From Nitrospirota bacterium (GTDB lineage: Bacteria > Nitrospirota > Thermodesulfovibrionia > Thermodesulfovibrionales > JdFR-85): a stretch of DNA of 46,255 nucleotides. The stretch lies in assembly GCA_015492645.1 (NCBI GenBank), contig WGER01000023.1, positions 1 to 46,255 on the forward strand, written 5' to 3'. A program made the translations under genes and the position numbers. The notes under the pieces were generated by a model, which had not been told where the DNA came from, did no database searches, and saw nothing but the letters and a program-made list of their open reading frames with translations. This document shows positions 15,712 to 31,552 of this stretch, piece by piece. The first letter of the stretch is position 1. Every line of letters begins with the position of its first letter.

Positions 15712-17571
15712 ATGAAAATGTCAGAAAAGAAGAGCACTGATAAGAAGGGTTTAAAGAGAAGGGATTTTCTGAAGATTGCAGGTGCAGTGGGTGTTGCTGC
15801 AGGTACAGGTGTGATACTGCCGAAGGAGAAGATATTTGCCCGTTCCAGTAAGGCGAAGCCGGGGCATCTCAGTAACGAGGTGAAGCCAGGGGAACTGGAT
15901 GACTACTATGGCTTCTGGTCAGGAGGTCACTCGGGAGAGGTGAGGATCATCGGTGTTCCATCGATGAGGGAGATAAAGAGGATCCCTGTGTTTAATATGG
16001 ATGTGGCTACTGGATGGGGAATAACCAATGAGAGCAAGAAACTCTTGAGAGGCAGGTACACGGGGGACACCCACCATGTCCACGGTTCCTACAAAAATGG
16101 CACCTATGATGGAAGATACCTCTTTGTCAATGACAAACTGAACAACAGGGTGGCAAGAATCAGGATCGACTACATGGAGGTTGATGCGATTGTGGATATT
16201 CCGAATGCACAGGGCATCCATGGGCTATTCCCCCAGAGGTATCCCAAGACGGAATGGGTTGTTGCCAATTCAGAGTTTCAGGTACCCATACCGAATGACG
16301 AGACAAATGTGACCGCCTTTAACAACCCTCAGGAGTACTATGGACTGCACACAATAATTGATGCAGAGAGGATGAGTATCGTATGTCAGGTCCTTGTGGA
16401 TGAGAACATGGACCTTGCTGCCACAGACTACAAGGGCAAGTATTCCATGGCGACCTCCTACAACTCTGAAAAGGGTGTGACCATTTCAGAGATGCTCGCC
16501 AGTGACTATGACTATCTGTTGATATTCCACTGGGGCAGGATCAAGGAGGCCCTCAAGAAGGGCAACTACAAGTGGATCAGTGGTGTAAAGGTGATTGATG
16601 GAAGAAAGGGTCATTCTGACATAGTGCTCAGGATACCGGTCCCGAAGAACCCCCACGGTGTGAATGTGTCACCCGATGGCAAGTACGCGATCTGTTCGGG
16701 CAAGGTATCACCCACCTGCACTGTGGTGGACCTCGATCTGGTGGACCTCGCCTTTGAGGGGAAGATAAAACCAGAGGAGTGTATTGTTGCACAGCCTGAG
16801 ATCGGACTTGGACCGCTTCACACCACCTTTGATGGCAGGGGCAATGCCTACACCTCTGTATTCATAGACAGCACAAATGTGAAGTGGAACATCCAGAAGG
16901 CGATTGAGGCAGAGAAGAAGGGGCCAGAAGAGAAGAAAAAGAAGGAGTATATAGTAGATGTGCTTGATATACACTACCAGGTCGGCCACATCATGGCATC
17001 GATGGCAGAGACGAAGGAGGCAGACGGTAAGTGGCTCGTTTCACTGAACAAGTTCTCCAAGGACAGGTTTATAAATGCAGGCCCTTATAAAATTGAAAAT
17101 GACCAGTTGGTTGACATCAGTGGTGAAAAACTGAGACTTGTCCACGACAGCCCTGCCTATGCAGAGCCCCACGACTGCATCATTGTCAGGCGCGACATCA
17201 TCGAGCCCCATGTGAAGGACAGGGTAGAGATGTTTGAACACCCTCTGGCAGTGGTGGAGAGCAGTGTTGAGAGGAAGGGGAATCATGTAATAATCAGGAT
17301 GACCTCCACCGCACCTGTTTACGGACTCCAGGAGGTGAGGCTCAAGAAGGGTGATAAGGTTACCCTGATCGTCACAAACCACGATGAGATATCTGACCTG
17401 AGTCACGGAGTGGCAATATCCAACTACAACATCAACTTCGTTATTGCCCCCTTCCAGACGAAATCGGTTACCTTCACAGCAGACAAGGCTGGGGTCTTCT
17501 GGGTCTACTGCACCAATTTCTGCCATGCCCTGCACTTAGAGATGAGAATGCGGCTGATAGTGGAGCCATAA
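15712..17571 (+). CDS. nosZ: Nitrous oxide reductase NosZ
   Basis: The periplasmic multicopper enzyme that reduces N2O to N2. A Tat signal (KRRDFLKIAG) opens the chain. CuZ-site histidines are visible in DTHHVHGS, QGIHGL, HWGR, PHGVN, GPLHT, YQVGH and EPHD. The C-terminal cupredoxin domain has the CuA motif C600-x3-C604-x3-H608-x2-M611 (CTNFCHALHLEM). The overall pattern and the gene neighbours (NosD, split NosR, bd-like and c-type cytochromes) point to the atypical clade II type, although that group often uses Sec export. At 619 residues it is full length. GGAGGAGGT abuts the ATG at 15712; the ATG at 15718 is also possible. Confidence 0.97.
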   Translation: MKMSEKKSTDKKGLKRRDFLKIAGAVGVAAGTGVILPKEKIFARSSKAKPGHLSNEVKPGELDDYYGFWSGGHSGEVRIIGVPSMREIKRIPVFNMDVATGWGITNESKKLLRGRYTGDTHHVHGSYKNGTYDGRYLFVNDKLNNRVARIRIDYMEVDAIVDIPNAQGIHGLFPQRYPKTEWVVANSEFQVPIPNDETNVTAFNNPQEYYGLHTIIDAERMSIVCQVLVDENMDLAATDYKGKYSMATSYNSEKGVTISEMLASDYDYLLIFHWGRIKEALKKGNYKWISGVKVIDGRKGHSDIVLRIPVPKNPHGVNVSPDGKYAICSGKVSPTCTVVDLDLVDLAFEGKIKPEECIVAQPEIGLGPLHTTFDGRGNAYTSVFIDSTNVKWNIQKAIEAEKKGPEEKKKKEYIVDVLDIHYQVGHIMASMAETKEADGKWLVSLNKFSKDRFINAGPYKIENDQLVDISGEKLRLVHDSPAYAEPHDCIIVRRDIIEPHVKDRVEMFEHPLAVVESSVERKGNHVIIRMTSTAPVYGLQEVRLKKGDKVTLIVTNHDEISDLSHGVAISNYNINFVIAPFQTKSVTFTADKAGVFWVYCTNFCHALHLEMRMRLIVEP

Positions 17572-17624: not shown

Positions 17625-18689
17625 ATGAGGGTTTTCAAGATCTTGATTGTCTTTATATTGGTATCATCTTTTGCTTATGCCCAGTGGGAGTTCTTTGAAC
17701 ACCGTTATAAGTACGAACTCTCAGATGTCCTGAAGGCGGACAGATTCGTGAAAAAGGATGGCTACTGGGAGGGCTACAGTGGTGACAGACTGGTGGGTTA
17801 TGTCTTTCTATCAAAGGACTGGACAAAGGATCTGGTGGGTTACTCTGGAAAACATATGGAGACCCTGATTGGTATGGACACTCAGGGCAGACTCACCGGA
17901 GTAAAGGTGATATACCATTCAGAGCCGATAGTGTTGATAGGGCTCAAGGAAGACAACTACAAGAGATTTATCAAGCAGTATCCAGGCAAGAGTATCCTGA
18001 CACCCCTGAGGGTGGGTAGAGAGGTATCCATGGACGCAATCACAGGTGCCACTGTGACTGCGGTGGTTCAGAATGCCATAATTACAGGCAGTGCCAGAAA
18101 GGTAGCCACGAAGGTGGGCCTCTTGGAGACAGAAGAGGTGGTGAAGAGAAGGATCAGCCAGCAGTACATGAGGCTCAACTGGGCGGAACTAATACAGACA
18201 GGTGCTATAGGAGTGCTGAAGGTCGAGTACAAGGACCTCGGTCTTGAAGGTAAAGGGGACTACATTGAGGTATATTTTGGTCTTCTGGACCCTCCAACTG
18301 TGGGCAGGAATATCCTCGGGAACAAGAGATACAGTGAACTCAGGGGAAGACTCAAGCAAGGTGAGTCAGCCCTTTTTGTTGTAGCAAGGGGAGAGGGCTC
18401 CTTCAAGGGATCAGGTTATGCAAGGGGTGGAGTGTTTGACAGGTTTAATATCGAACAGGGTGAAAGGGTGTTTGTATTCAGGGACAGGGACTACAGGATA
18501 CTCACAGAAGTGAAGGCCTCTGGTGCGCCTGACATCAAAGAGGGTGGTGTCTTTGTGATAAGAGGTGAGGAGTTCGATCCAACAAGGCCCTTCAAGTTCA
18601 ACCTGATACTGCCATACAGGGTAGGTGCAAAGAAGTTATTCAAGTCATTCACAGTCGAGTATAGATTGCCGGAGTCACTGCTGGAGTGA
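17625..18689 (+). CDS. nosR: NosR N-terminal half: periplasmic FMN-binding protein
   Basis: A 354-residue exported protein with a signal peptide (about residues 1-19, ending AYA). Its FMN-binding domain has the flavinylation motif D137-AITGAT143-V, where the last Thr of TGAT would carry FMN. The rest matches the periplasmic part of NosR, ending exactly where the membrane helices of NosR would begin. The remaining half is encoded 3 nt downstream. NosR feeds electrons to NosZ and helps keep it active. The gene is therefore a split NosR, not a truncation. Confidence 0.88.
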   Translation: MRVFKILIVFILVSSFAYAQWEFFEHRYKYELSDVLKADRFVKKDGYWEGYSGDRLVGYVFLSKDWTKDLVGYSGKHMETLIGMDTQGRLTGVKVIYHSEPIVLIGLKEDNYKRFIKQYPGKSILTPLRVGREVSMDAITGATVTAVVQNAIITGSARKVATKVGLLETEEVVKRRISQQYMRLNWAELIQTGAIGVLKVEYKDLGLEGKGDYIEVYFGLLDPPTVGRNILGNKRYSELRGRLKQGESALFVVARGEGSFKGSGYARGGVFDRFNIEQGERVFVFRDRDYRILTEVKASGAPDIKEGGVFVIRGEEFDPTRPFKFNLILPYRVGAKKLFKSFTVEYRLPESLLE

Positions 18690-18692
18690 GAG

Positions 18693-20894
18693 ATGCCTGA
18701 GGCACTGTGGATACAGATGTGGAAGATGAAGGCCCTCCATGTGGTTGCCTTTACCTGCTTCATAGTGTTGCTCCTGTTGTTAGCGGTGCTGAAGGACCCC
18801 CTCAGCAAGCGGAGGAGGTTGCTCAACGCCGTCCGTTATGCCGCCCTTCTGATCAGTTTTGTCTATGTGGGGCTGTTCCTGAAGGCACAACCAACCACTA
18901 CCAATATAGTAATTGTGGCAAATCAATTAAAGTCACTGAAGTTTTCCATTGGACTGTACCTGATGGAGCCCTTCATCTTCCTGTCCTTTGTCTTTATCAT
19001 TGTTACGATTGTCTTCTGGGGAAGGGGTGTATTCTGTGGATGGCTCTGTCCCTATGGAGCGATGCTGGAACTGTTAAACAAACTATACAGTATGGTCTCT
19101 AAAAAGAGGTTTGAACCGGGAGAATCTGTCCACAGGAGGCTATATTATGTAAAATACACTGTCTTTCTTATTATCCTGGCTGTCTCTTTCTTCAGTTTCA
19201 TTCTATCGGAGTATCTCACAGAGGTGGAACCCTTTAGGACCTTTGTCCTGAAGATGAAGAGACAGTGGTATTTTAATCTGTATTTCCTCTTGATCAGCCT
19301 CCTTTCAGTACTCACCTACAGGGCCTTCTGCAGATACCTCTGCCCCCTCGGCGGTGCCATCGGGATACCTGCACTGCTCAGGGTAATCCCGCTGGTGAAG
19401 TTGAAGAGACATCACCTCTGCGGCACGTGCAGGATCTGTGAGAGACAGTGTCCCTATGGGGCGATAAATCGGGACGGGAGCATAAGGACTGAGGAGTGTC
19501 TGTACTGCCTGGAATGTCAGATGAACTACTGGGATAAAAGGGTATGTCCTGCCCTTAAGAAAGAACAGACCAGACCAAAGATCCTGCTCGTAGCCGCCTC
19601 TCTGCTACTGTTTGTGTGGTTGTTCCCCTCCTTCTCATGGGCAGAGACCATAGTTGTGGGTGACAGATACCCGAGCATCTCCGAGGCCCTCAGATTTGCC
19701 AGAGATGGTGATACAGTGGAGGTCCTGCCGGGCACATACAGGGAGAGGTTTATTATTGACAAGTCGATCTATCTGAAGGGGATAAACAGACCCAGAATTA
19801 TTGCTGAAAGGGGAAATATCATTGAGGTGAAGGCCACTGGAGTTGTTATCGAGGGCTTTGAATTCAGTTACACTGGCAGAGACCTCGGAAGAACAGACAC
19901 AGTGGTCTACATCCATAAGGGCTCAAAGGGGGTGGTGGTGAGAGACAACAGGATGGAGGGTGTGATGTTTGGTGTGTGGAATGTTGAAGGCTCTGACATA
20001 GCAATAGTGGGTAATGTGGTGACAGGCAGAAAGGAACTTGAGAGGGAGAGAAGGGGCAACTGTATCAATCTCACAGGCTCTACAAGGGCCAATGTAATGG
20101 ATAACAACCTTGATTACTGTCGTGACGGAATTTATATGGAGGTCTGTCATGATTCAAAGGTTACAGGGAATGAGATACGCCACTCCCGTTACTCCATTCA
20201 CACCATGTGGGTTGACAGAGGAGAGTTCAACAACAACCGCGCGATTGGCAACTTGGTCGGCCTCGCCATAATGTATACAAAGCATTCAGAGGTGAAGGGC
20301 AACATTGCTGCAGGGAATCAGACCCATGGGCTTCTCTTTCTGCAGGCGGTCAGGACCGATATATCAGACAATATAGTGATAGGAAACACCAAGGGTATCT
20401 TCCTATACAACTCCGTTCTGAATCGAGTCACTTCAAACTTGGTGATGAATAATCAGGTGGGCATCCATAACTGGGGAGGGTCTGAGGAGAACGAGATCAC
20501 AATGAACAGTTTTATCAACAACGAAATCCAGACGAAGTTTGTCTATACAAGGAACCAGTACTGGGATGGCAATTACTGGAGTGACTACTTGGGATGGGAT
20601 ATGACAGGGGATGGCATTGGAGACACACCCTATGAGTCCAACACAGTGGTTGATCATATCCTCTGGAGATACCCGATCCTGAAGGTCCTTTATGCAAGTG
20701 TGTCCCTGCAGATGCTCTGGCTGATTGATAAGCAGTTTCCTGTGCTGGATGTACCAAAGATGATAGACAGGAGACCCTATATGCAACCCTTCCATCCCGA
20801 CTGGAAGGCCCTTGCCCTCAGATATCCCTACAGGCCTGAGAGGTACTATGGAGAGATCCAGAAACTGCCTCATCTGCCAGGAGGGGTGTTCTGA
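18693..20894 (+). CDS. nosD: NosR C-terminal half fused to NosD
   Basis: A 733-residue fusion. Residues about 1-290 are the membrane/ferredoxin half of NosR (NapH-like), with several helices, CGWLCPYG (from about residue 114), CRYLCPLGG and cytoplasmic clusters of CGTCRICERQCP and CLYCLECQ type. A helix at about 296-316 (ILLVAASLLLFVWLF) leads the chain back across the membrane. From about residue 318 follows NosD, a beta-helix of carbohydrate-binding/CASH repeats (ETIVVGDRYPSISEAL onward) needed for CuZ assembly. Usually NosD is a separate secreted protein; here the NosR helix replaces its signal peptide. It overlaps nosF by one base. Confidence 0.92.
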   Translation: MPEALWIQMWKMKALHVVAFTCFIVLLLLLAVLKDPLSKRRRLLNAVRYAALLISFVYVGLFLKAQPTTTNIVIVANQLKSLKFSIGLYLMEPFIFLSFVFIIVTIVFWGRGVFCGWLCPYGAMLELLNKLYSMVSKKRFEPGESVHRRLYYVKYTVFLIILAVSFFSFILSEYLTEVEPFRTFVLKMKRQWYFNLYFLLISLLSVLTYRAFCRYLCPLGGAIGIPALLRVIPLVKLKRHHLCGTCRICERQCPYGAINRDGSIRTEECLYCLECQMNYWDKRVCPALKKEQTRPKILLVAASLLLFVWLFPSFSWAETIVVGDRYPSISEALRFARDGDTVEVLPGTYRERFIIDKSIYLKGINRPRIIAERGNIIEVKATGVVIEGFEFSYTGRDLGRTDTVVYIHKGSKGVVVRDNRMEGVMFGVWNVEGSDIAIVGNVVTGRKELERERRGNCINLTGSTRANVMDNNLDYCRDGIYMEVCHDSKVTGNEIRHSRYSIHTMWVDRGEFNNNRAIGNLVGLAIMYTKHSEVKGNIAAGNQTHGLLFLQAVRTDISDNIVIGNTKGIFLYNSVLNRVTSNLVMNNQVGIHNWGGSEENEITMNSFINNEIQTKFVYTRNQYWDGNYWSDYLGWDMTGDGIGDTPYESNTVVDHILWRYPILKVLYASVSLQMLWLIDKQFPVLDVPKMIDRRPYMQPFHPDWKALALRYPYRPERYYGEIQKLPHLPGGVF

Positions 20895-21781
20895 TGTTTG
20901 TACTGGATGGGGTCACAAAGTACTACAGGGATGTGAGGGGTGTAGAAGAGATCTCTCTCACTATCAGGCAGGGGGAATTCCTCGGACTGGTGGGGCCAAA
21001 TGGCTCTGGCAAATCGACTCTTTTAAAGATAATGCTCGGCCTTCTGAGGCCCAACTCAGGCAGGATACTCTTCAATGGTGAACCGGTGGATGACAGGGGA
21101 TGGAGAGAACTCAGAAGGAGGATCGGATATATGCCGGAGAGGATCTCCTTTTACGATAACCTGACAGGCCTTGAGACCCTCAGATTATTCGCAAGGATAA
21201 AGGGGTGTGAGGTGGATGAGACGGTCAAGCGGTTATTACCAGGGGATGCCCTCCGCAGAAGGGTTGGTGGATACTCAAAGGGCATGAGACAGAGACTCAA
21301 CCTCGCCCAGGCGCTCATGGGTACACCGGATATCCTTGTGCTCGATGAACCAACCTCAGGGCTTGACCCCTCAGGCAGACTGGAGTTCTACAGTCTCATT
21401 GAAGAGATAAGAGAACAGAGGGTCCTTACTGTGGTGCTCTCCACTCACCTGCTCGCAGAGGTGGAGGAGAGGGTTGACAGGGTTGTGATCATGAGGGATG
21501 GCAGGATCAAGGCAGAAGGTAGCATTACAGAGTTGTACAAGAGGTTGAACCTGCCATTGAAGGTGTATATCACCGTAAAGGGCCGGGACACTGTCCTGGA
21601 AGACCTGCTCAGACTTGAAGGTGCAAGGGGATTACTGTACAAAAACGGTTATCTGATTGCTGAGGTCCCTCCGGAAAGGAAGATGAGTTTGCTCGGACTG
21701 TTGATGGAAAAGAGGGAGAGATTTGAAGACATTGAGATAACAGAGCCTTCACTCGAGGAGGTGTTCTTTGGTATTCACTGA
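20894..21781 (+). CDS. nosF: ABC transporter ATPase NosF
   Basis: The cytoplasmic ATPase of the NosDFY maturation system, which supports copper/sulfur-site assembly in NosZ. Walker A is GPNGSGKST (about residue 36), the signature region is YSKGMRQRLNLAQAL, Walker B is ILVLDEPTSGLDP, and the H-loop lies in LSTHLLAEVE. It has 295 residues, normal for the family. It is coupled to the upstream fusion gene by an ATGA-type overlap and overlaps nosY by 14 nt. Confidence 0.95.
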   Translation: MFVLDGVTKYYRDVRGVEEISLTIRQGEFLGLVGPNGSGKSTLLKIMLGLLRPNSGRILFNGEPVDDRGWRELRRRIGYMPERISFYDNLTGLETLRLFARIKGCEVDETVKRLLPGDALRRRVGGYSKGMRQRLNLAQALMGTPDILVLDEPTSGLDPSGRLEFYSLIEEIREQRVLTVVLSTHLLAEVEERVDRVVIMRDGRIKAEGSITELYKRLNLPLKVYITVKGRDTVLEDLLRLEGARGLLYKNGYLIAEVPPERKMSLLGLLMEKRERFEDIEITEPSLEEVFFGIH

Positions 21782-22595
21782 GGCAACAAGAGCGATGGCA
21801 TGGAAGGAACTGACTGACAAGATGAGGAACAGATGGGTCCTTCTGGTGGCCTTCACCTTTCTGCTTTTTACACTGATGATAGCCTATTTCGGGGCAGCAC
21901 CTGCTGGTGTGACTGGATTCAGGAGGATGGAAACCACCCTTGCAAGCCTTACCAGTCTTGTCTCCTTCTTTATACCACTGATGGCCCTCACCCTTGGTGG
22001 TGGAATTATAGCAGACGAGAGGGAGAGAGGCACCCTGGAACTGTTACTCGCCTCGCCCATGTCTGCAACGGAATTTATAGTTGGGAAGTTTCTCGGGCTC
22101 CTTGTTGCCATGACTCTGGCTGTTACCGTTGGGGTTGGTGCTGGAGCAGGCCTGCTCAGTATTAAGACAGGGGTTGAGGGCATGCTAACCTTTGTCAGGT
22201 TTCTGGTGAACTGTATCATCCTGGGGCTGATCTTTCTGAGTATATCACTCTTTGTCTCTGTGCTTCTTTACGAAAGGTCCAGGGTTGTGGCCTTCACAGT
22301 GCTTATCTGGCTTTTTTACACCATCCTCTATGACCTTGGAGTGATAGGGATTGTTCTTATTACAAAGGGAGAGATCGGCATGGGTCCCTTCACCGCCCTT
22401 TTGCTACTGAATCCAGTGGATGTATTCAGGCTCCTCAACTTCTTGGGTATAGGGGAGTTCAGGCTGATCCTTGGCCTTACTGCGGTGGAATTCCCTGAGT
22501 TTATTAACACCACATTTCTGTTAGGGGTGAGCCTGGTATGGCTGGGGGTGCCCATATTAGGGACCCTACTGCTCTTCAGAAGGAGATATCAATGA
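21768..22595 (+). CDS. nosY: ABC transporter permease NosY
   Basis: A 275-residue membrane protein with about six hydrophobic helices and the ABC-2 permease coupling motif IIADERERGTLELLLASPMS. It is the permease partner of NosF. The frame opens with a TTG at 21768 inside the nosF end, with GAGGAGG about 7 nt upstream. The gene order D-F-Y is the standard one for nos clusters. Confidence 0.93.
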   Translation: MVFTEATRAMAWKELTDKMRNRWVLLVAFTFLLFTLMIAYFGAAPAGVTGFRRMETTLASLTSLVSFFIPLMALTLGGGIIADERERGTLELLLASPMSATEFIVGKFLGLLVAMTLAVTVGVGAGAGLLSIKTGVEGMLTFVRFLVNCIILGLIFLSISLFVSVLLYERSRVVAFTVLIWLFYTILYDLGVIGIVLITKGEIGMGPFTALLLLNPVDVFRLLNFLGIGEFRLILGLTAVEFPEFINTTFLLGVSLVWLGVPILGTLLLFRRRYQ

Positions 22596-22617: not shown

Positions 22618-24060
22618 ATGAGAAGACTTTTGGTTGCCCTTTTGTTACTCTTTCCTCTCCTTGCTCATGCCTATGAGGCAGGAGAGGTCAGAGGTGCTGC
22701 CACAGTGAAGGGTGTGGTCATCTACTCAGGGAGACCACCCCAGGATGAAAGAATAATAGTTGACAGGGACAGGGGGGTCTGTGGTTCAAGTCAATCTGCT
22801 GGAAAGTATCTACTGAAGGGGAAGAGGGTACAGAATGTGGTGGTATGGCTTGAAGGAGTGGAGAGGGGGAAACCAGTCCCTGAGTCTGAGGTGAAACTCA
22901 CCATCTCTACCTGCAGGGTGAGGCCACTTGTTAGTGTGGGATTTGTCGGAGGAGTATACAGAATAGTAAACGAGGACCCGATCCTTCATACTGTACAGTT
23001 GAAACTCGGCCTTGAGTATCACAAACTCGTCTCTGATAGACCCCTTGATAAAGGTGTAACCATCTACAACCTGGCACTGCCGAGGAAGGGGATGGAGATA
23101 ACCAGGCCGATAAAGAGATTCCACAGGCTTACAGAGAAGACCGGCATTGTGAGGGTCACCTCTAATACCCATCCATGGATGAGGGCCTATATCTTCGTCT
23201 TTGACCATCCCTATGCCACAGTGACAAACCCCGACGGAGAGTTCGTGATAGGAGATATCCCCCCCGGGGATTACATCTTGAAAGTATGGCATGAAGGATT
23301 CGGCACAAAGGAGATCAGGGTGAACCTCCGTGCCTCAGAAACGGAAGAACTGGAGATTGACCTTGGTGGGGGTACACCCTCAGCAGGATTTCCCGAGGTG
23401 AGATTCGATTTTGGCAGGATCGAGTTGGGCGAGAGGGTCTCGCACGATTTCAGGGTCTTAAATGAAGGTGACGGGATGCTCAGGATCGTGGATCTGATAC
23501 CTGCTTGAAGGCTCTGTACCTCTGTCTCTGCCAGTTCGGCAGAGATACCTCCTGGTGGAGAGGCCCTGGTTACCATCACCTATGACTCAGGGGCTGACCC
23601 TGTGGTGAAGCCCGGAGAGAGGGTCCTCAAGAGTGTGGAGGTCTGGACAAATGACCCGGAAAGGAGGATGGTGATTCTCGCCCTTCAGGGTGAGGTGGCC
23701 TCTAAGGAAGAGGCCCGGTCTGGGGATGACAGAGTGGCCGAGGTGGTCTTCAAAGAAACCACCTTCGACTTCGGTACAGTGGACGAAGGTACAGAAGTCA
23801 GACACAGGTTCTTCTTCACCAACAGAGGAGATGCCCCTTTGAAGATCGAAGAGATAGTGTCTTCCTGAAAGAGGGCAACCAGGGCCTCTGCCAGTTCGGC
23901 AGAGATACCTCCTGGTGGGGATGGTTATATTGAGGTGGTGGTGGACACCAGAGGGATGGAAGGCAGGATCAGCAAGTCCTTTGAAGTAAAAACGAACGAT
24001 CCAGTAAATGGTTCAGTGATACTCACAGTCTATGGAGTGGTGAAAGGAGATGCTCAGTAG
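22618..24060 (+). CDS. Candidate selenoprotein: cupredoxin-like plus two DUF1573 domains, TGA codons 297 and 417
   Basis: One frame of 480 codons with two internal TGA codons (23506-23508 and 23866-23868) and a final TAG. A Sec signal peptide (ending AHA) leads a domain shared with the 25593 gene (CGSSQ, NLALPRK, HPWMRAY, IPPGDY, WHEGF). Then come two DUF1573 domains (VRFDFGRIELGERV and TTFDFGTVDEGTEV). The family has an SCGCT motif after the first half of each domain; here the first Cys is TGA (IPA-U-RLCT and VSS-U-KRAT). Typical DUF1573 sequence continues in frame after both (EIPPGG, WTNDP, KTNDP). Each TGA is followed by the same hairpin. The frame overlaps the next ATG by 11 nt. A gene caller would stop at 23508. 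Confidence 0.8.
23523..23547 (+). promoter_or_regulatory. SECIS-like hairpin 1
   Basis: A 10-bp stem (23523-23532 with 23538-23547, one G-U pair) has apical loop AGTTC with G at loop position 2. The core TCTGCC-AGTTC-GGCAGA starts 18 nt after the TGA at 23506-23508. This matches the general bacterial SECIS layout of an apical-loop G about 16-37 nt downstream of UGA. Confidence 0.7.
23886..23904 (+). promoter_or_regulatory. SECIS-like hairpin 2
   Basis: The same core TCTGCC-AGTTC-GGCAGA (23887-23903), extended by one C-G pair, starts 18 nt after the TGA at 23866-23868. Sequence identity with hairpin 1 runs about 32 nt, well above the similarity of the rest of the two domains. Confidence 0.7.
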
Positions 24061-25051
24061 AAGAGATTTTATAAGGACGGTCCTTATCTGTGGTGGAGCA
24101 ATTTTCCTCAAAAGCGGTGTTGTCCTCTCCTCCGGATTAAAGGACACAGAGGTGAAGGCGGTGACACTGGACATCACTTATACGACAGAGATACTGAGAC
24201 CTCCAAAGAGGAGAGGAGTTCAGATATGGATACCCCTGCCGCGGACAGACCTTGAACAGGAAGTCTCATCCCTGAAAGTGACCTCTCCTTATGAGTACAG
24301 GATTGGAGAGGCTGGTCCAAACAGGATGCTCCATCTGAAGACGGATGAAGTGAAAGAGGGAGACAGGATCACTATGGTGTTCAGATTGAAGAGAGTGGCC
24401 TCTGGGACCACTATTGAACCTGAGGAGGACCCACAGCAGCACCTCAGGCCCTCAGAGTGGGAGAGATGGGACAGGACTGTGGCCGAATTTGTAGAGAGGG
24501 TTGCTGGTAAGGAGAAGGACCCCCTGAAGGTTGGCAGACTCCTCTATGACGCGATTATCGACAGGAGTAAATACCTCCATGAGGTCTGTGGCAGAGGGGT
24601 TGCCACCCTGTTTCTTGAAGAAAAGGTGGGCAGATGTGATGAGTTCCATGCACTGTTCAGGAGTGCACTTATGTACAGGGGTATACCTGCCAGGTGGGAG
24701 CAGGGTATAGCCTTCCCCTACCCGTCTGAGATAAAAAAGAGGGGTGAGTTTGAAGCGGACTGTATTAACGCCCATAGTTGGGTGAGGTTCTACTTAGGTG
24801 ATGGGAGGTGGTTCCCTGTGGACCTGTCCGAGGCGAAGAGAAGGCCAGACCTTAGAGAATACTACTTTGGGAGACTTGTCCCTAACCGTATGAAGGTCTC
24901 AAGTGGCAGAGGGTTGGTGCTCAACCCGCCACAGAAAGGGATAATAAACACCTTTGCCTATACCTATATAGAGGCAGGAGGGCTACCGGTCATCTATGGA
25001 CACAACTACAGAAATACCATTAATTACAAACTGCTGGCCATGGAGGTATAG
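24050..25051 (+). CDS. Exported transglutaminase-like protein
   Basis: A 333-residue protein with a Tat-like start (SRRDFIRT and a hydrophobic stretch). It has a transglutaminase/protease-like core: Cys in VGRCDEFHALF, His in INAHSWVRFY and Asp in FPVDLSEA form the expected catalytic triad. The substrate is unknown. The ATG lies inside the end of the upstream selenoprotein frame, and a thioredoxin-like gene follows at once. This links it to a periplasmic maturation or thiol-redox role in the nos cluster, by context only. Confidence 0.85.
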   Translation: MLSRRDFIRTVLICGGAIFLKSGVVLSSGLKDTEVKAVTLDITYTTEILRPPKRRGVQIWIPLPRTDLEQEVSSLKVTSPYEYRIGEAGPNRMLHLKTDEVKEGDRITMVFRLKRVASGTTIEPEEDPQQHLRPSEWERWDRTVAEFVERVAGKEKDPLKVGRLLYDAIIDRSKYLHEVCGRGVATLFLEEKVGRCDEFHALFRSALMYRGIPARWEQGIAFPYPSEIKKRGEFEADCINAHSWVRFYLGDGRWFPVDLSEAKRRPDLREYYFGRLVPNRMKVSSGRGLVLNPPQKGIINTFAYTYIEAGGLPVIYGHNYRNTINYKLLAMEV

Positions 25052-25052
25052 G

Positions 25053-25550
25053 ATGCTGAGATGGTTAACAATGGTGCTATGGCTTTTTGTGATCATTGTT
25101 CCTGAGGGCCATGCCTCTGAGAAATCTCCACTGGTGGGCAGGCCTGTGCCAACCTTCAAATTACCTGATGAAAATAACAAACTGGTGGATTTCGGGACCC
25201 TGATAGACAGGCCCACCATCATCTATTTTACGCATAATTCATGTCATTACTGCACCCAGATTATAGCGCTCCTGAAGAGGGCAAAGGCGAAGTTTGGAGA
25301 CAGTATAAGGGTGATAGGGATCAATGTGATGGCAGAGGACAACAAACTTGTGAGGGCCTACAAGGAGGAACTGGGGTTTATCTTCCCCATGTTTGCTGGT
25401 AACCGTTACGAAGTATTAAAGACCTACAGAATTAACTATGTACCGGTGCTGGTCTTTGTTGACGCAAAGAGGATTATAAGAAGGGTGGTGGGACACTATA
25501 TACATGAACCCGTGCTCCACAGGTATATAAGGGAGATAATCGAGAAGTAA
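25053..25550 (+). CDS. TlpA-like periplasmic thioredoxin
   Basis: A 165-residue exported thioredoxin-fold protein. The signal peptide or anchor (LTMVLWLFVIIV) is followed by LVGRPVPTFKLPDENNKLVDF, the redox motif CHYC and the cis-Pro region (NYVPVLVFVD). Proteins of the TlpA/ResA class reduce Cys or Sec in the periplasm, for cytochrome c or CuA assembly. I chose the ATG at 25053 because GGAGGT is 6 nt upstream; the longer frame from 24996 lies inside the previous gene. A natural partner would be the DUF1573 selenoprotein two genes upstream. Confidence 0.88.
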   Translation: MLRWLTMVLWLFVIIVPEGHASEKSPLVGRPVPTFKLPDENNKLVDFGTLIDRPTIIYFTHNSCHYCTQIIALLKRAKAKFGDSIRVIGINVMAEDNKLVRAYKEELGFIFPMFAGNRYEVLKTYRINYVPVLVFVDAKRIIRRVVGHYIHEPVLHRYIREIIEK

Positions 25551-25592: not shown

Positions 25593-26390
25593 ATGAAGAG
25601 GTTGATTTTCGCGACATTGATTCTCTGTCTGCTCTGGCCCATCGGTTCAGAGGCGAAGAGAGTGAGGTATAAGGTGGTGGAGGTGAAGAACGGTGGCACG
25701 ATTAAGGGAGTGGTGAAGGCATCCAAGAAGGTTCCTGATCCTGTGTTGCCAATAAAGGTAAAACCAAAACCTGACCCGAAGGAGACGGAACTGGAGAAAA
25801 AGACCTGTGGTTCCAGTCAACCTGCCAAGATGTATGTCTTTTCTCCTGACCTCGGGGTAAAAAATGTCCTTGTGATTGTAGAGGATGTGAAGGAGGGTAA
25901 GGCCCCTCCCAAGAAGGACCTGGAGATTGACAATATAAAGTGCCGCTTTGACCCACTCGTGGGAATCGCCTATAAGGGATCAAAGTTCATCATCAAGAAC
26001 AGTGACCCTATATTCCACAACACATCCCTCGGGAAACTCCTCACAAGAGGCAGGAGGAGGACTGTTTATAACCTTGCCCTCCCGAAGAAGGACCAGGTAA
26101 TCAGAAAACCTGTGAGAGTGACAGGACTGGTTGATGTGAAGTGTGACGCCCATCCCTGGATGAGGGCCTATGTGTATGCCTCCAGACACCCCTATGTGGC
26201 TATTACTGATGATGGGGGGAGTTTTGAAATAAGGGATCTCCCCCCTGGCAGATACAGGGTGAGGTTCTGGCACGAGGGGTTTGAGGAGGTGGTGAAGAAT
26301 GTAGAGGTGAAGGCAGGTGGAGTGACAGAGGTGAAGGTGACTTTCACAAAGACGAGAAAACCTGCCTTTTTGGCCGGGCTTGGTCTATAA
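25593..26390 (+). CDS. Exported cupredoxin-like / carboxypeptidase-regulatory-like protein
   Basis: A 265-residue secreted protein with a signal peptide (about residues 1-21). It is a clear paralogue of the N-terminal domain of the 22618 protein, sharing TCGSSQ, NLALPKK, HPWMRAYVY, LPPGRYRVRFWHEGF and the same layout. Here the potential metal site is intact, with Cys in VKCDAHPWM plus an upstream His (DPIFHN). The copy at 22618 has VTSNTHPWM and so lacks this Cys. Copper binding is a reasonable inference. AAGGAGG precedes the ATG. Confidence 0.8.
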   Translation: MKRLIFATLILCLLWPIGSEAKRVRYKVVEVKNGGTIKGVVKASKKVPDPVLPIKVKPKPDPKETELEKKTCGSSQPAKMYVFSPDLGVKNVLVIVEDVKEGKAPPKKDLEIDNIKCRFDPLVGIAYKGSKFIIKNSDPIFHNTSLGKLLTRGRRRTVYNLALPKKDQVIRKPVRVTGLVDVKCDAHPWMRAYVYASRHPYVAITDDGGSFEIRDLPPGRYRVRFWHEGFEEVVKNVEVKAGGVTEVKVTFTKTRKPAFLAGLGL

Positions 26391-26435: not shown

Positions 26436-28181
26436 TTGGCTGAAAAGGATATAAAGAAGGGAGTGCTGAAGGGACTCTTAAAGTTGACCCTGATTCTGGG
26501 TGCAGGTTTTCTCCTCTTAGGGATACTGGGCAGGATACTGCCCTCTCCAACAGAGGATGGATACAGGTTCTTTCCGGTGATAGGTAGCAGGGTATGGGTC
26601 TGGATAGTTGCCCAGTTACACCTGAACTTTGCAGCCTTTGTCCTCGGTGTTCCCATATTTGCAGTGACCATGGAGTTCCTTGGCTGGAGAAGAAAAGATG
26701 AAAGGCTCGACAGGATAGCCTATGACTTCACCAAACTCTTCACCCTTGCCTACACACTTACTGCTGTTATGGGAGCGGTATTGATGGTGAGTCTGCCCAT
26801 ACTCTACCCGAAGTTCATTCAACATCTGATGAAGGTCCTCGGACCTACATGGTGGGCCTATATACTCTTTATGTACGGTGAGGTGTTTGTCTGTTATTAC
26901 TACTTCTACTCATGGCACAGGATGAAGGACAGGAAGGGATTGCATGTGCTTCTTGGTGTACTCCTCAATGTGATGGGGACGATACTGTTGCTCATAACCA
27001 GTTCCTGGGTTGGTTACATGACCACACCAGCAGGGGTGACAGAAACAGGTGAACTGGTGAACCGTTGGCAGGCGATAAAGACCTACATGTGGATCCCCCT
27101 GTCACTGCACAGACTTGTTGCCAATGTGGTTTTTGGTGCAGGTATTGCCGCAGCCTATGCCGCCTTCAGGTTCATCACAGCAACAACCCCGGAAGAGAAG
27201 GCCTATTATGACTGGATGGGCTACACCTCGGCCATGATAGCCATCGGGTTCTCCCTGATACTGCCAGGGATTGGTTACCTCCTTGGGGTCGAGATATACG
27301 CCTTTAATGAGCAGATGGGGATTCAGTTGATGGGAGGCTTCTATGCATGGCTCTGGGTGATGCAGGCGATTCTCATAGGAGCGATACTGTTCTTTATAAA
27401 CTACTACCTCTGGATCTCACTTAACAAGATGCCGGGTGGGGAGAGGTATTTCAGGTATGTGAAGTTCCTGTTTATCGTTGTCCTGCTCGGATATGCCATA
27501 TGGTTGACACCCCACAGTGTTGCATTGAGTCTTGAGGAGGCGAGACGTATAGGCTCCTATCATCCTGTGTTGGGGAAACTGGGTGTTATGGCCTCGAAGA
27601 ACACCGCCGTAATAATCTCCTACATGGCGACCTTCATCAGTTTTGCCATCTTCAGGATGAGCAACAAGGAGCCCACCGTCTCATGGGCCTCAATGGGTAA
27701 GTGGTTGAGGGTATTGATAATAGTGGCATCCACAGGGGTTGTCCTCTTTCTGGGTGTATACAGTTACATGGTCCCTTCAGTTACAAGGGTGAAGGTGCTG
27801 TCACCCATTCAGTTCGGTGTCTTCCTGCTGTCCATTCTTGCCCTTTATATACTGGACAGCAGGATGTTCAAAGGGGCAAGGGTGATAGGAGAGCCGAGGT
27901 GGGGACAGATGCCAGAAAGGTCCCAGTATGCCCTTATAGGGATCACTGTCACCTTCACCTGGTTGATGGGAATGATGGGTTATATGCGTTCAGGTGGCAG
28001 ACAGTACTGGCATGTCTACGGGATACTGAAGGACACCAGTCCAGATGCCTACCTGCCTGCCCATGGTGTCGCCTCAGTAATAGTAACACTCGTAACCCTT
28101 CTGTTCTTCCTGATGGTCGCCTTCGTCTTCTGGAGTGTGATGAAACTTGAGATGATCGCAGAACAGAGGAGGGCAAAATGA
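26436..28181 (+). CDS. Cytochrome bd-like oxidase subunit I homologue
   Basis: A 581-residue polytopic membrane protein with about 14 hydrophobic segments. It resembles the divergent bd-like quinol oxidases known from Nitrospira, with conserved His in QLHLNFAAFVLGVP, SLHRLVANVVFG and LTPHSVALS. No subunit II gene is adjacent; three cytochrome c genes follow instead. This suggests quinol oxidation coupled to c-type cytochromes, or reduction of O2 or NO. The sequence alone does not decide. The start is TTG at 26436 after AAGGAGGT. The stop overlaps the next ATG (ATGA). Confidence 0.8.
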   Translation: MAEKDIKKGVLKGLLKLTLILGAGFLLLGILGRILPSPTEDGYRFFPVIGSRVWVWIVAQLHLNFAAFVLGVPIFAVTMEFLGWRRKDERLDRIAYDFTKLFTLAYTLTAVMGAVLMVSLPILYPKFIQHLMKVLGPTWWAYILFMYGEVFVCYYYFYSWHRMKDRKGLHVLLGVLLNVMGTILLLITSSWVGYMTTPAGVTETGELVNRWQAIKTYMWIPLSLHRLVANVVFGAGIAAAYAAFRFITATTPEEKAYYDWMGYTSAMIAIGFSLILPGIGYLLGVEIYAFNEQMGIQLMGGFYAWLWVMQAILIGAILFFINYYLWISLNKMPGGERYFRYVKFLFIVVLLGYAIWLTPHSVALSLEEARRIGSYHPVLGKLGVMASKNTAVIISYMATFISFAIFRMSNKEPTVSWASMGKWLRVLIIVASTGVVLFLGVYSYMVPSVTRVKVLSPIQFGVFLLSILALYILDSRMFKGARVIGEPRWGQMPERSQYALIGITVTFTWLMGMMGYMRSGGRQYWHVYGILKDTSPDAYLPAHGVASVIVTLVTLLFFLMVAFVFWSVMKLEMIAEQRRAK

Positions 28182-28693
28182 AGACTGGTGTGATCAAACT
28201 GCTTATAGTTGTACTTGGGATAAACATCTTCTTTGCATATATAGGGCTGTATTTTCTCCCTCAATCTGAGTCAAGGCCTCCAAAGGAATTAAAACTGGCC
28301 CCCGGTGTTTCACAGGATGATCTGGTCTTACTCGGTGAGGAGATTGTATTCGGTAAGGGGCAGTGCATGGTATGTCACCCTATGAAGCCAGAGACAGGCA
28401 TGAGGGCACCTGCCATAGCAACCATTGGGGCGGATATGAAGAAGGAGGCAGAGAAGAGAGGGATCCCCTACGAGGAGTATCTCTTTATAGCACTTGTGGC
28501 ACCTTCAAAATACGTGGCTGAGGGCTATGACGATATCATGCCACCGGTGCATAAACCTCCTACTTCGCTGAATGAGGGCGAGTTGATAGCAGTAGCAGCC
28601 TACCTGCAGAGCAGGGGTGGCACAGTGACAGTGAAGTATCCTGATTCTCTGGAACAACTCAGGGAAATCATCCGTAGAGAAGGAGGTTCATAA
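28178..28693 (+). CDS. Membrane-anchored monoheme cytochrome c
   Basis: A 171-residue protein with an N-terminal anchor helix (IKLLIVVLGINIFFAYIGLYFL) and one heme site, CMVCHPM. A Met-Pro (DIMPP) near residue 128 is a plausible sixth-ligand region. It is translationally coupled to the bd-like gene, so it is probably a fixed subunit or direct redox partner of that protein. Confidence 0.88.
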   Translation: MKTGVIKLLIVVLGINIFFAYIGLYFLPQSESRPPKELKLAPGVSQDDLVLLGEEIVFGKGQCMVCHPMKPETGMRAPAIATIGADMKKEAEKRGIPYEEYLFIALVAPSKYVAEGYDDIMPPVHKPPTSLNEGELIAVAAYLQSRGGTVTVKYPDSLEQLREIIRREGGS

Positions 28694-29499
28694 TGACAGA
28701 GATCTACATAGGGGTATTTCTGCTCGGCATCCTGATATCCCTTCTCGCATGGTATAAGAGGTCTCCCTTTTTCAACTTCATAGGGATCCAGATCGCAGTT
28801 TACGGCTTTCTGAAGGGATTGGCCCTGTTTATACCACCCCTGCCATCGCAGGTGGTGGTGATGTATATGGCCATGTCTGTATTCGCCTTCTTCATATACT
28901 TCTCCATAAGAGAGGAGACCTTCAGGGCATTTCTTGCTCCGATAAAGTCTGTGCTGGCCGACAGGGACAAGGTGCTGTACAGGGTGGTGATCGTATTTAT
29001 TGGTCTCCCCCTCCTTGCTGCCTATATCACATATGCGAAGGTGAGGCCCTCCTTTGAGCCACCGGTGTCTGCAAGGATAGTGCATCCTGAGCCGCCTACA
29101 GAGATAGACTTCAGGGGAAAGAAGATCCAGATACTCGGACTTGAGAACCCCCTCAGGAAGGATACTGACAGAATGAAGGACTATCTTGAGGAGGGGAAAA
29201 AGATATACTATCAGAACTGCTTCTTCTGCCACGGGGACGACCTTGATGGGAAGGGCCACTTTGCAGAGGCCTTCAACCCTCCACCGCTGCCATTCAGGGG
29301 TACAGATACGATAGCGCAACTGCCAGAGTCCTTTGTCTTCTGGAGGATAGCCAAGGGATGGACGGGACTACCACCTGGCTCAAGGCCATGGGATTCTGCT
29401 ATGCCTGCCTTCGAGGATATACTCACAGAGGATGAGATCTGGAAGGTGATTCTCTTTATTTATGAAGCATCTGGTAATAAACCGAGGACTTGGGAATAG
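28693..29499 (+). CDS. Membrane protein with C-terminal cytochrome c domain
   Basis: A 268-residue protein with three or four N-terminal helices (IYIGVFLLGILISLLAW, VVMYMAMSVFAFFIYF, VVIVFIGLPLLAAYI) and a periplasmic cytochrome c domain with CFFCHGDDLDGKG and a likely Met ligand in AMPAFEDIL. It overlaps the previous gene by one base and continues the bd-like/cytochrome module. Confidence 0.87.
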   Translation: MTEIYIGVFLLGILISLLAWYKRSPFFNFIGIQIAVYGFLKGLALFIPPLPSQVVVMYMAMSVFAFFIYFSIREETFRAFLAPIKSVLADRDKVLYRVVIVFIGLPLLAAYITYAKVRPSFEPPVSARIVHPEPPTEIDFRGKKIQILGLENPLRKDTDRMKDYLEEGKKIYYQNCFFCHGDDLDGKGHFAEAFNPPPLPFRGTDTIAQLPESFVFWRIAKGWTGLPPGSRPWDSAMPAFEDILTEDEIWKVILFIYEASGNKPRTWE

Positions 29500-29508
29500 G
29501 AGGTCAGA

Positions 29509-30927
29509 ATGTGGATGTTAATAGTGATTCTGTTCATCTGTATCATACCACATCACCTGTATGCCCAGGAAGAGATGGGCAAAAAGATATATGAGCAGTG
29601 GTGTGCGCAGTGCCATGGGTACGAGGGTGATGGTGAGGGATATGCGAAGGACTACACGTTTCCAAAACCGAGAGACTTCACACTCGGGGCCTACAAATTC
29701 AGGAGCACACCCACAGGGGAGCCACCCACCACTGACGACCTTGTGAGGGTTATAAAGAACGGCAATCCAGGTACGTCCATGCCTGCGTGGAAGAGGTTAA
29801 CTGATGAGGAGGCGAGGGCAGTGGCAGAGTATCTGAAGGAGTTTGCACCCGATGTATTTGAATATGAACCTGAGCCCATAGAGATAACACCACCACCCTA
29901 TTCCGAGGAACTGGTAAAGAAGGGCAAGGAACTCTTCAGGGTTGCGAAGTGTGTGGAGTGTCACGGTCTTGAAGGCAGGGGTAACGGTAAGAAGGGGTGG
30001 GAGGAGAACTTCCGTGATGACTGGGGTAACAGGATCTACCCTGCGAACTATACCTACCCATGGGAACTGAGGAATGGCTCTGATGTCAGGGATATCTACA
30101 GGACTATCACCACTGGGCTGAACGGTACACCCATGACCTCCTATCAGGATTCTCTGAGTGATGAAGAGAGATGGGCACTCGCTTACTTTATCAAGTCACT
30201 TCAACTGGACAGACGCCTGGGTATCTCTCTCACCATACGGAAGACAGAGGCGATCCCTCAGTCACTGGAGGACCCCCTCTGGGATACCCTGGAATACCTG
30301 GACCTGCCCATGGGAGGACAGGTGATATTTGAACCGAGAGAGTTTACTCCAGTGATAACAAATGTGAGGGTGAGGGGAGTGTATACCCAGGACGAGGTGG
30401 GTATCCTCCTTGAATGGGTAGACAAGCGGCCGAACAGGGGTGACGATGGGCTCCCACCGGATGGAATAAGAATTCAGTTCCCCCAAAAACTGACCGAGAC
30501 AGGTAATCCCTATTTCTTTATGGGTGACAGGAGACATCCAGTAAATCTCTGGTGGTGGAAGGCATCTACCTCACAGGCAAAGGAATATGTGGCGAAGGGT
30601 CCGGGCAACATCTTTGAGCAAGACAACCAGGATGTAAGGGCCGTGGGTGAATATAAGGAGGGTCTTTACAGGGTCCTCTTTATAAGAAGACTCTCCACAG
30701 AAGACACTGAGGACATCGCCTTCATCCCTGGAAGGTTTATACCCTTTGCTGTACAGGCCTTTGATGGAAGAGAGGAAGAAGAGGGATTGAAGTGTGCACT
30801 GTCGGCATGGTACTATCTCATGCTGGAACCACAGACACCTCTCAAGGTCTACATACTGCCACCGGTAGTAGGGCTACTGGTCTTCGGGATAGGTTATGGA
30901 CTGCACAGGAAGATGAGAGGAGAATAA
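29509..30927 (+). CDS. Diheme cytochrome c with NxrC/ethylbenzene-dehydrogenase-type heme domain
   Basis: A 472-residue exported protein. A signal peptide (ending LYA) is followed by two cytochrome c domains (CAQCHGYEGDGEG and CVECHGLEGRGNG) and then a domain of about 200 residues resembling the heme-b-binding gamma subunits of ethylbenzene dehydrogenase and NxrC (GGQVIFEPREFTPVITNVRVRGVYTQ, LLEWVDKR). A C-terminal helix anchors it. The N-terminal half is a paralogue of the 14890 diheme cytochrome. It probably collects electrons from the bd-like module and passes them to periplasmic reductases. GGAGGT precedes the ATG. Confidence 0.85.
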   Translation: MWMLIVILFICIIPHHLYAQEEMGKKIYEQWCAQCHGYEGDGEGYAKDYTFPKPRDFTLGAYKFRSTPTGEPPTTDDLVRVIKNGNPGTSMPAWKRLTDEEARAVAEYLKEFAPDVFEYEPEPIEITPPPYSEELVKKGKELFRVAKCVECHGLEGRGNGKKGWEENFRDDWGNRIYPANYTYPWELRNGSDVRDIYRTITTGLNGTPMTSYQDSLSDEERWALAYFIKSLQLDRRLGISLTIRKTEAIPQSLEDPLWDTLEYLDLPMGGQVIFEPREFTPVITNVRVRGVYTQDEVGILLEWVDKRPNRGDDGLPPDGIRIQFPQKLTETGNPYFFMGDRRHPVNLWWWKASTSQAKEYVAKGPGNIFEQDNQDVRAVGEYKEGLYRVLFIRRLSTEDTEDIAFIPGRFIPFAVQAFDGREEEEGLKCALSAWYYLMLEPQTPLKVYILPPVVGLLVFGIGYGLHRKMRGE

Positions 30928-31057: not shown

Positions 31058-31552
31058 ATGTTTGCTCCTGCGGGTAGATACTACAGTCTGATCATTTGTA
31101 TTATGATTCTTTCTCTTCTGGGTTGTGAGAAAGAAACAGAGGTGAAGCCACCACCTGTTGAGTTTACAGATACAGACAGTTGCGCCCTCTGTGGGATGTT
31201 GATAATGGAGTATCCAGGACCGAAGGCCCAGATACACTACAGAAACGGGCGAGTGGACAGATTCTGCAGTGTCCAGGAAATGATGAGTTTTTACTTACAA
31301 CCTGACCGGCCGAAGGATATAGTGGCTATTTATGTAACCGATATGAAGAGGGCTGACTGGAAAAGGCCCAGGAATGCATGGATAGATGCAGAAGGGGCAT
31401 TCTATGTCTATGGTGCGAGTATTTCAGGGGCAATGGGAAACGAACTCGTCCCTTTCTCTGATAGGCCATCTGCAGAGGCATTCATAGCCAGATATGGAGG
31501 CAAGGTTATACGTTTCCACGAGATAAACATGCAGATGCTGGAGCCACGATGA
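31058..31552 (+). CDS. nosL: NosL-family copper lipoprotein 1
   Basis: A 164-residue lipoprotein (lipobox LLGC) of the NosL family, which delivers Cu(I) for NosZ. The metal motif DSCALCGM and the conserved FCSVQEMM region are present, followed by the NosL fold (AWIDAEGAFYVYGASISGAMGNELVPFSD). GAGAGGAA precedes the ATG. The stop overlaps the next start. Confidence 0.92.
   Translation: MFAPAGRYYSLIICIMILSLLGCEKETEVKPPPVEFTDTDSCALCGMLIMEYPGPKAQIHYRNGRVDRFCSVQEMMSFYLQPDRPKDIVAIYVTDMKRADWKRPRNAWIDAEGAFYVYGASISGAMGNELVPFSDRPSAEAFIARYGGKVIRFHEINMQMLEPR

Follow-up and report, generated by a model that had tools for sequence, protein, structure and literature searches.

A gene encoding a predicted double selenoprotein of the DUF1573 family was found inside the nitrous-oxide reductase (nos) cluster of a Nitrospirota bacterium, at positions 22618-24060 of the forward strand of the window, that is, of the whole analysed stretch of 46,255 nucleotides. 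The product is almost certainly an exported selenoprotein with selenocysteine (Sec) inserted at both UGA codons, each of which has an in-frame SECIS hairpin of its own to direct the insertion. The gene and its parts are the following.

22618..24060 (+), gene of the double-Sec DUF1573 selenoprotein, 480 aa with Sec at 297 and 417, delimited by the reading frame and by orthologues with both TGAs
22618..22671 (+), probable N-terminal signal peptide MRRLLVALLLLFPLLAHA, recognized by reading the sequence
22672..23367 (+), N-terminal beta-rich module (N-module) with a CarboxypepD_reg-like end (Pfam), a paralogue of 25593-26390
23377..23697 (+), DUF1573 domain 1 with a UxxC motif (Pfam, NCBIfam)
23506..23508 (+), TGA at codon 297, read as Sec297
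23526..23544 (+), SECIS-like hairpin 1, CUCUGCC-AGUUC-GGCAGAG, loop 24 nt after the UGA
23743..24039 (+), DUF1573 domain 2 with a UxxA motif (Pfam, NCBIfam)
23866..23868 (+), TGA at codon 417, read as Sec417
23886..23904 (+), SECIS-like hairpin 2, the same 19-nt stem-loop as hairpin 1, loop 24 nt after the UGA

An earlier sequence-only reading had described here one 480-codon frame with exactly two TGA codons, which overlaps the next ATG, and both points hold. The frame is closed by TAG and contains two internal stops, both of them TGA, with no TAA or TAG, while the remaining two forward frames of the same region contain 31 and 26 stops. A strong AAGGAGG ribosome site precedes the ATG, and the terminal TAG overlaps the ATG of the following gene (24050) by 11 nt. 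The same reading had placed both TGAs at the first Cys of SCGCT motifs in DUF1573 domains. Each codon does fall within such a domain, but the expected SUGCT was rejected as the motif of this protein, because the sequence is A-U-R-L-C-T in domain 1 (UxxC, exceeding CGC by one residue) and S-U-K-R-A-T in domain 2 (UxxA, with Ala replacing the second Cys).

Conservation of both codons and of the coding sequence around them supports Sec at positions 297 and 417, as had been proposed. In five relatives from the same family (G003, G004, G006, G011 and G013; 59-61% identity) both TGA codons are conserved in position, with no further internal stop. Relatives with a single domain keep the first TGA, which was found in 17 genomes overall. 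Identity by codon position is 0.74/0.79/0.43 before TGA 1, 0.76/0.77/0.45 between the TGAs and 0.79/0.81/0.51 after TGA 2; since this pattern is unchanged beyond both codons, purifying selection on the protein continues past each of them. A search of the genome of the window for the Sec machinery, suggested by the earlier reading, revealed all its components, namely tRNA-Sec(UCA), carrying a TCA anticodon in the gene, SelA, SelB and SelD. Both this search and the comparison with relatives, either of which could have refuted that reading, turned out to support it. In the order to which this bacterium belongs, 154 of 176 genomes gave a selA match, and the only UxxC genomes without one are G099 and G107, two incomplete MAGs where the TGA gene is present. 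Neither the phylum sample nor the scan of genome contigs yielded a UxxC-branch orthologue with Cys, so the Sec/Cys pair test speaks for the UGC branch only, where Cys homologues were found (SCGCT in G443 and NCSCA in G103).

Each TGA is followed by a hairpin with an AGUUC loop and a 7 bp stem, having an energy of -11.2 kcal/mol when folded alone; none of 200 shuffled sequences was as stable. In relatives that are one residue shorter, the loop begins 21 nt after the UGA, and the AGUUC loop was found at fixed spacing in 20 nos-type sites (GGUUC in one of them). In these 20 sites 96.4% of stem cells are paired, in comparison with 34-49% when the partner strand is slid, and three pairs are changed on both sides; in 14 UGC-type sites the corresponding values are 93.9% and six pairs, all these counts being obtained on sequences that are related to one another and lie in a coding region. 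The hairpins agree with every rule (loop, G, spacing and energy) of the bacterial SECIS (bSECIS) model used as a reference (PMC13188914). No Rfam family was matched in a search with the hairpin. The good conservation of the peptide SASSAEI probably results in part from the SECIS element.

It is very improbable that the TGAs are ordinary stops, the product being a 296-residue N-module protein and the remainder a decaying remnant. The standard code does end the frame at codon 296, as in the ORF list, and the N-module stands alone in some relatives (G018, G110, G309, G321 and G428), but conservation of both TGAs in six genomes without any other internal stop, unchanged codon-position constraint downstream, a covarying hairpin 3' of each TGA and the full Sec machinery contradict this reading. 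A sequencing error or a pseudogene was rejected too, because six genomes share both codons and the coding constraint is unchanged. That this genome reads TGA as one of the ordinary amino acids, to which the in-frame TGAs here and in selD (whose own TGA lies in an AGU motif) could point, is hardly credible in view of tRNA-Sec, SelA, SelB and the hairpins 3' of the DUF1573 TGA codons, and a change of the genetic code was rejected because TGA terminates genes of the same cluster, such as the N-terminal part of nosR (18689) and nosL (31552).

The protein passes the Pfam gathering score of DUF1573 (PF07610) with 116.7 bits against 26.1, in two stretches, and as a whole the cut-off of NCBIfam NF041425 with 140.7 bits against 100, also with two matched stretches. 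The AlphaFold model has a mean pLDDT of 69.6, the DUF1573 domains being modelled well and the N-module poorly; the placement of the two Sec residues relative to each other is not usable. Foldseek searches with this model gave generic Ig-like proteins only, and neither AlphaFold nor Foldseek predicted a thioredoxin or peroxidase fold for DUF1573.

Selenoproteins of this family are already known. OS_HP2, which is pfam07610 with a UxC motif, was described from marine data (PMC2398784; Zhang and Gladyshev 2007-2008), and DUF1573 selenoproteins are listed with one Sec and the motif UGC (PMC9312934, PMC13188914). The protein under discussion shares with OS_HP2 (NF041425) the DUF1573 Ig-like domain in which Sec replaces the initial Cys of the CGC site. 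It differs from the known members, with their one Sec and UGC, in having two domains, two Sec residues and the motifs UxxC and UxxA, on account of which it was filed as a variant branch of NF041425. This branch, found in nos clusters, also adds an N-terminal module or, in relatives, a fusion with SCO, as well as a fixed place in these clusters. Two Sec residues per protein are known from the multi-Sec bacterial selenoproteins MbdU, MduS and the UxxU metal-binding protein (PMC13188914), but these belong to unrelated families, and DUF1573 is listed in the same source with one Sec. Thus, of the earlier suggestion that a two-Sec DUF1573 protein is undescribed, the part concerning the double-Sec branch stands: in the searched literature the double-Sec, UxxC/UxxA, SCO-replacing and nos-locked DUF1573 branch appears to be undescribed. 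The DUF1573 family itself is not new; the nos-linked branch with UxxC and UxxA/S is.

In this Nitrospirota class TGA was found in 108 of 111 DUF1573 domains (E up to 1e-14), weaker Cys forms being under-counted because the E threshold favours close relatives. Many of these Sec proteins are single domains or fusions with c-type cytochromes. The genome of the window itself has a second DUF1573 selenoprotein (contig C31, 7354-7650), with SUGCT, an AGUUC hairpin and a C-terminal c-type cytochrome, which has many relatives throughout the class. Another DUF1573 selenoprotein (L171, in G118) carries an extra TGA at an unexpected site (NAUDKEL), where a sequencing error or decay is likely. A branch with 100/100 support divides the tree built from 48 domains into one group with every UxxC and UxxA/S domain and another with every UGC domain. 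The second domains of the double-Sec proteins form one clade (100/98) inside the nos branch, and domain 2 therefore looks like a duplication that took place there. The relatives that carry names in the collection belong to Nitrospirota and are for the most part MAGs from hydrothermal vents and groundwater and Candidatus Magnetominusculus.

The position of the gene inside a nos cluster, stated earlier, was established from its neighbours, with NosZ, NosR, NosD, NosF and NosY encoded upstream and NosL downstream.

15712..17571 (+), nosZ, TAT-type nitrous-oxide reductase (NCBIfam TIGR04244, E 6e-254), with the CuA motif CTNFCHALHLEM near the C-terminus
17625..18689 (+), N-terminal part of nosR, with a TGA stop (NF046105 positions 41-372)
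18693..20894 (+), C-terminal part of nosR fused to nosD (NF046105, TIGR04247)
20894..21781 (+), nosF-like ABC ATPase (Pfam)
21768..22595 (+), nosY-like ABC-2 permease (Pfam)
24050..25051 (+), transglutaminase-core protein (Pfam PF01841, synteny), co-lost with the Sec domain
24996..25550 (+), TlpA/ResA-type thioredoxin with CHYC (Pfam, synteny), co-lost with the Sec domain
25593..26390 (+), N-module paralogue with CDAHPWM, cupredoxin-like (homology, Pfam)
31058..31552 (+), nosL copper chaperone (Pfam PF05573)

The order of genes is cytochrome c - nosZ - nosR - nosD - nosF - nosY - slot - transglutaminase - TlpA - N-module paralogue - ... - nosL, the slot being occupied here by the selenoprotein gene. 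The fused NosR ferredoxin part and NosD (18693-20894) are separate in some relatives. The transglutaminase-core protein carries a Tat-like SRRDF motif and what looks like a Cys-His-Asp triad, and its gene adjoins that of TlpA in nos clusters. The product of 26436-28181 shows a weak match to cytochrome bd subunit I; it is conserved at 75-87% across nos clusters, being missing from some, and together with the cytochromes at 28178-30927 it is probably a quinol-cytochrome module.

Distribution of the UxxC domain follows that of the reductase. Among the 176 genomes of the order, it is present in 16 of 19 that possess a close NosZ, whereas the other 157 lack it; conversely, 16 of 16 UxxC genomes have this NosZ, and the position in the operon is identical. 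Three NosZ genomes are without the domain: in G098 the cluster is cut by the end of a contig, and from G018 and G110 the domain has apparently been lost. In the latter two the Sec domain, the transglutaminase and TlpA are absent together; since they retain nosZ, the Sec domain is not strictly needed.

Four types of slot were distinguished in related clusters. In the first, which occurs in sister lineages, there is an N-module gene and a separate SCO1-like gene, without DUF1573 (L086, L087, G321, G309 and G428). The second contains an SCO-DUF1573 fusion with Sec (G372, G043 and G071; Pfam SCO1-SenC 66-73 bits, DUF1573 68-71 bits), accompanied by an N-module gene in G372 and G043. The third has the N-module fused to one Sec domain, with no SCO (G007, G030, G041, G059, G099, G100, G106 and G107), and the fourth, the N-module with two Sec domains, is represented by the window and its five relatives. 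Four successive events could have produced this series: a state with an N-module gene plus a separate SCO gene would come first, SCO would then be fused to a Sec-DUF1573 domain, SCO would be lost with fusion of the Sec domain to the N-module, and finally the Sec domain would be duplicated to give UxxC plus UxxA.

The SCO-like proteins of the slot align with ScoI of Bradyrhizobium (PDB 4WBJ) and keep CxxxC, their copper-binding His being changed to Tyr or Phe. SCO1/SenC proteins (PF02630, ScoI of Bradyrhizobium) share the operon slot with our protein in related nos clusters, and three genomes have them joined to this Sec domain in one protein. The window selenoprotein is nevertheless without an SCO or thioredoxin domain: Pfam found no SCO domain in it, and the CxxxC thioredoxin fold with a distal His, characteristic of SCO1/SenC, is absent; it would be a functional analogue and not a homologue. 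No true SCO was found in the genome of the window, and a paralogue elsewhere in this genome was rejected, since both weak PF02630 matches are WCPPC thioredoxins. PCuAC is present in this genome (contig C1, 53132-53431); with its relatives, it was found in five of six two-Sec genomes and in none of the searched nos genomes with a single Sec or SCO-Sec.

The position of the gene in the slot where related bacteria keep SCO suggests that selenium helps to assemble N2O reductase. In Paracoccus, NosZ is assisted by SCO and PCuAC homologues when copper is scarce, in Thermus SCO was proposed as a reductase of CuA cysteines, and in Bradyrhizobium TlpA reduces ScoI and the CuA subunit CoxB (PMC7558416, PMC6696091). 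From these data, the CuA motif of NosZ and the neighbouring TlpA with its CHYC, we infer a relay from TlpA to Sec-DUF1573 and further to the CuA cysteines of NosZ, the Sec protein taking the place of SCO. The adjacent TlpA-type thioredoxin would keep the Sec-DUF1573 protein reduced, and the latter would reduce or protect both CuA cysteines, or an intermediate carrier, so that copper may be inserted. In our opinion, the chances are evenly balanced that the protein is a periplasmic selenol/thiol partner of TlpA acting in place of SCO in NosZ maturation, with the CuA cysteines as the likely target. That the SCO relatives no longer have the copper-binding His favours redox chemistry over copper carriage. 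The absence of a resolving Cys in domain 2 (UxxA/S), unusual for a simple dithiol-type reductase, counts against a redox partner; the lone Sec417 could pair with Sec297 or with a substrate. The broader view, that NosZ of Nitrospirota is matured via a selenium-dependent route, where Sec-DUF1573 replaced SCO and two Sec residues work as a pair, one of them without a partner Cys, is put forward more tentatively and falls somewhat short of an even chance.

The main rival to the redox role is that of a Cu(I) metallochaperone, rather unlikely in our estimation, in which Sec and Cys of the Ig-like domains together with the N-module would bind copper and pass it to NosZ, as SCO and Cox11 do. It would explain the SCO position and the SCO fusions, and the N-module paralogue bears a cupredoxin-like CDAHPWM. 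The predicted Ig-like fold of DUF1573 also recalls two-Cys Cox11, which is likewise periplasmic and Ig-like, has two chalcogen residues and takes part in copper-site assembly (PMC7558416), but a sequence relation to it is not established and Cox11 serves CuB of the aa3 oxidase. Against a chaperone speak the missing copper His of the SCO-like partners, the motif SNTHPWM in the N-module of the selenoprotein, where the Cys of CDAHPWM is gone, and the presence of NosL for CuZ and of PCuAC. Less probable still is some other nos-linked redox role, whether as a peroxidase or nitrosative-stress scavenger guarding NosZ or in electron transfer among the cytochromes of the cluster. Sec within the redox-type UxxC motif, the fusion of the UGC paralogue of this genome to a c-type cytochrome and the cytochrome c genes of the cluster are consistent with it, but fusion to SCO, its replacement and the joint loss with TlpA indicate a part in thiol/copper maturation, and a scavenging peroxidase is at variance with the fold predictions for DUF1573.

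Concerning the suggestion that the protein is a new component of N2O respiration, its link with nos is well supported by neighbourhood and co-occurrence, and its biochemical role is a proposed one. No paper joining DUF1573 with N2O reductase was found in the literature searched, and the present data give a first genomic link of selenium with N2O respiration. They also offer a candidate function for DUF1573, a large family of unknown role, in thiol/selenol redox reactions or copper handling beside SCO and TlpA. Automatic annotation terminated at UGA, with an ORF ending at residue 296, hides the likely active part of this nos accessory protein. N2O reductase is the enzyme that destroys the greenhouse gas N2O; if the proposed role is true, the final step of denitrification requires not only copper but also selenium, whose supply could set a limit to N2O consumption in Nitrospirota of the subsurface and of vents and in magnetotactic ones.
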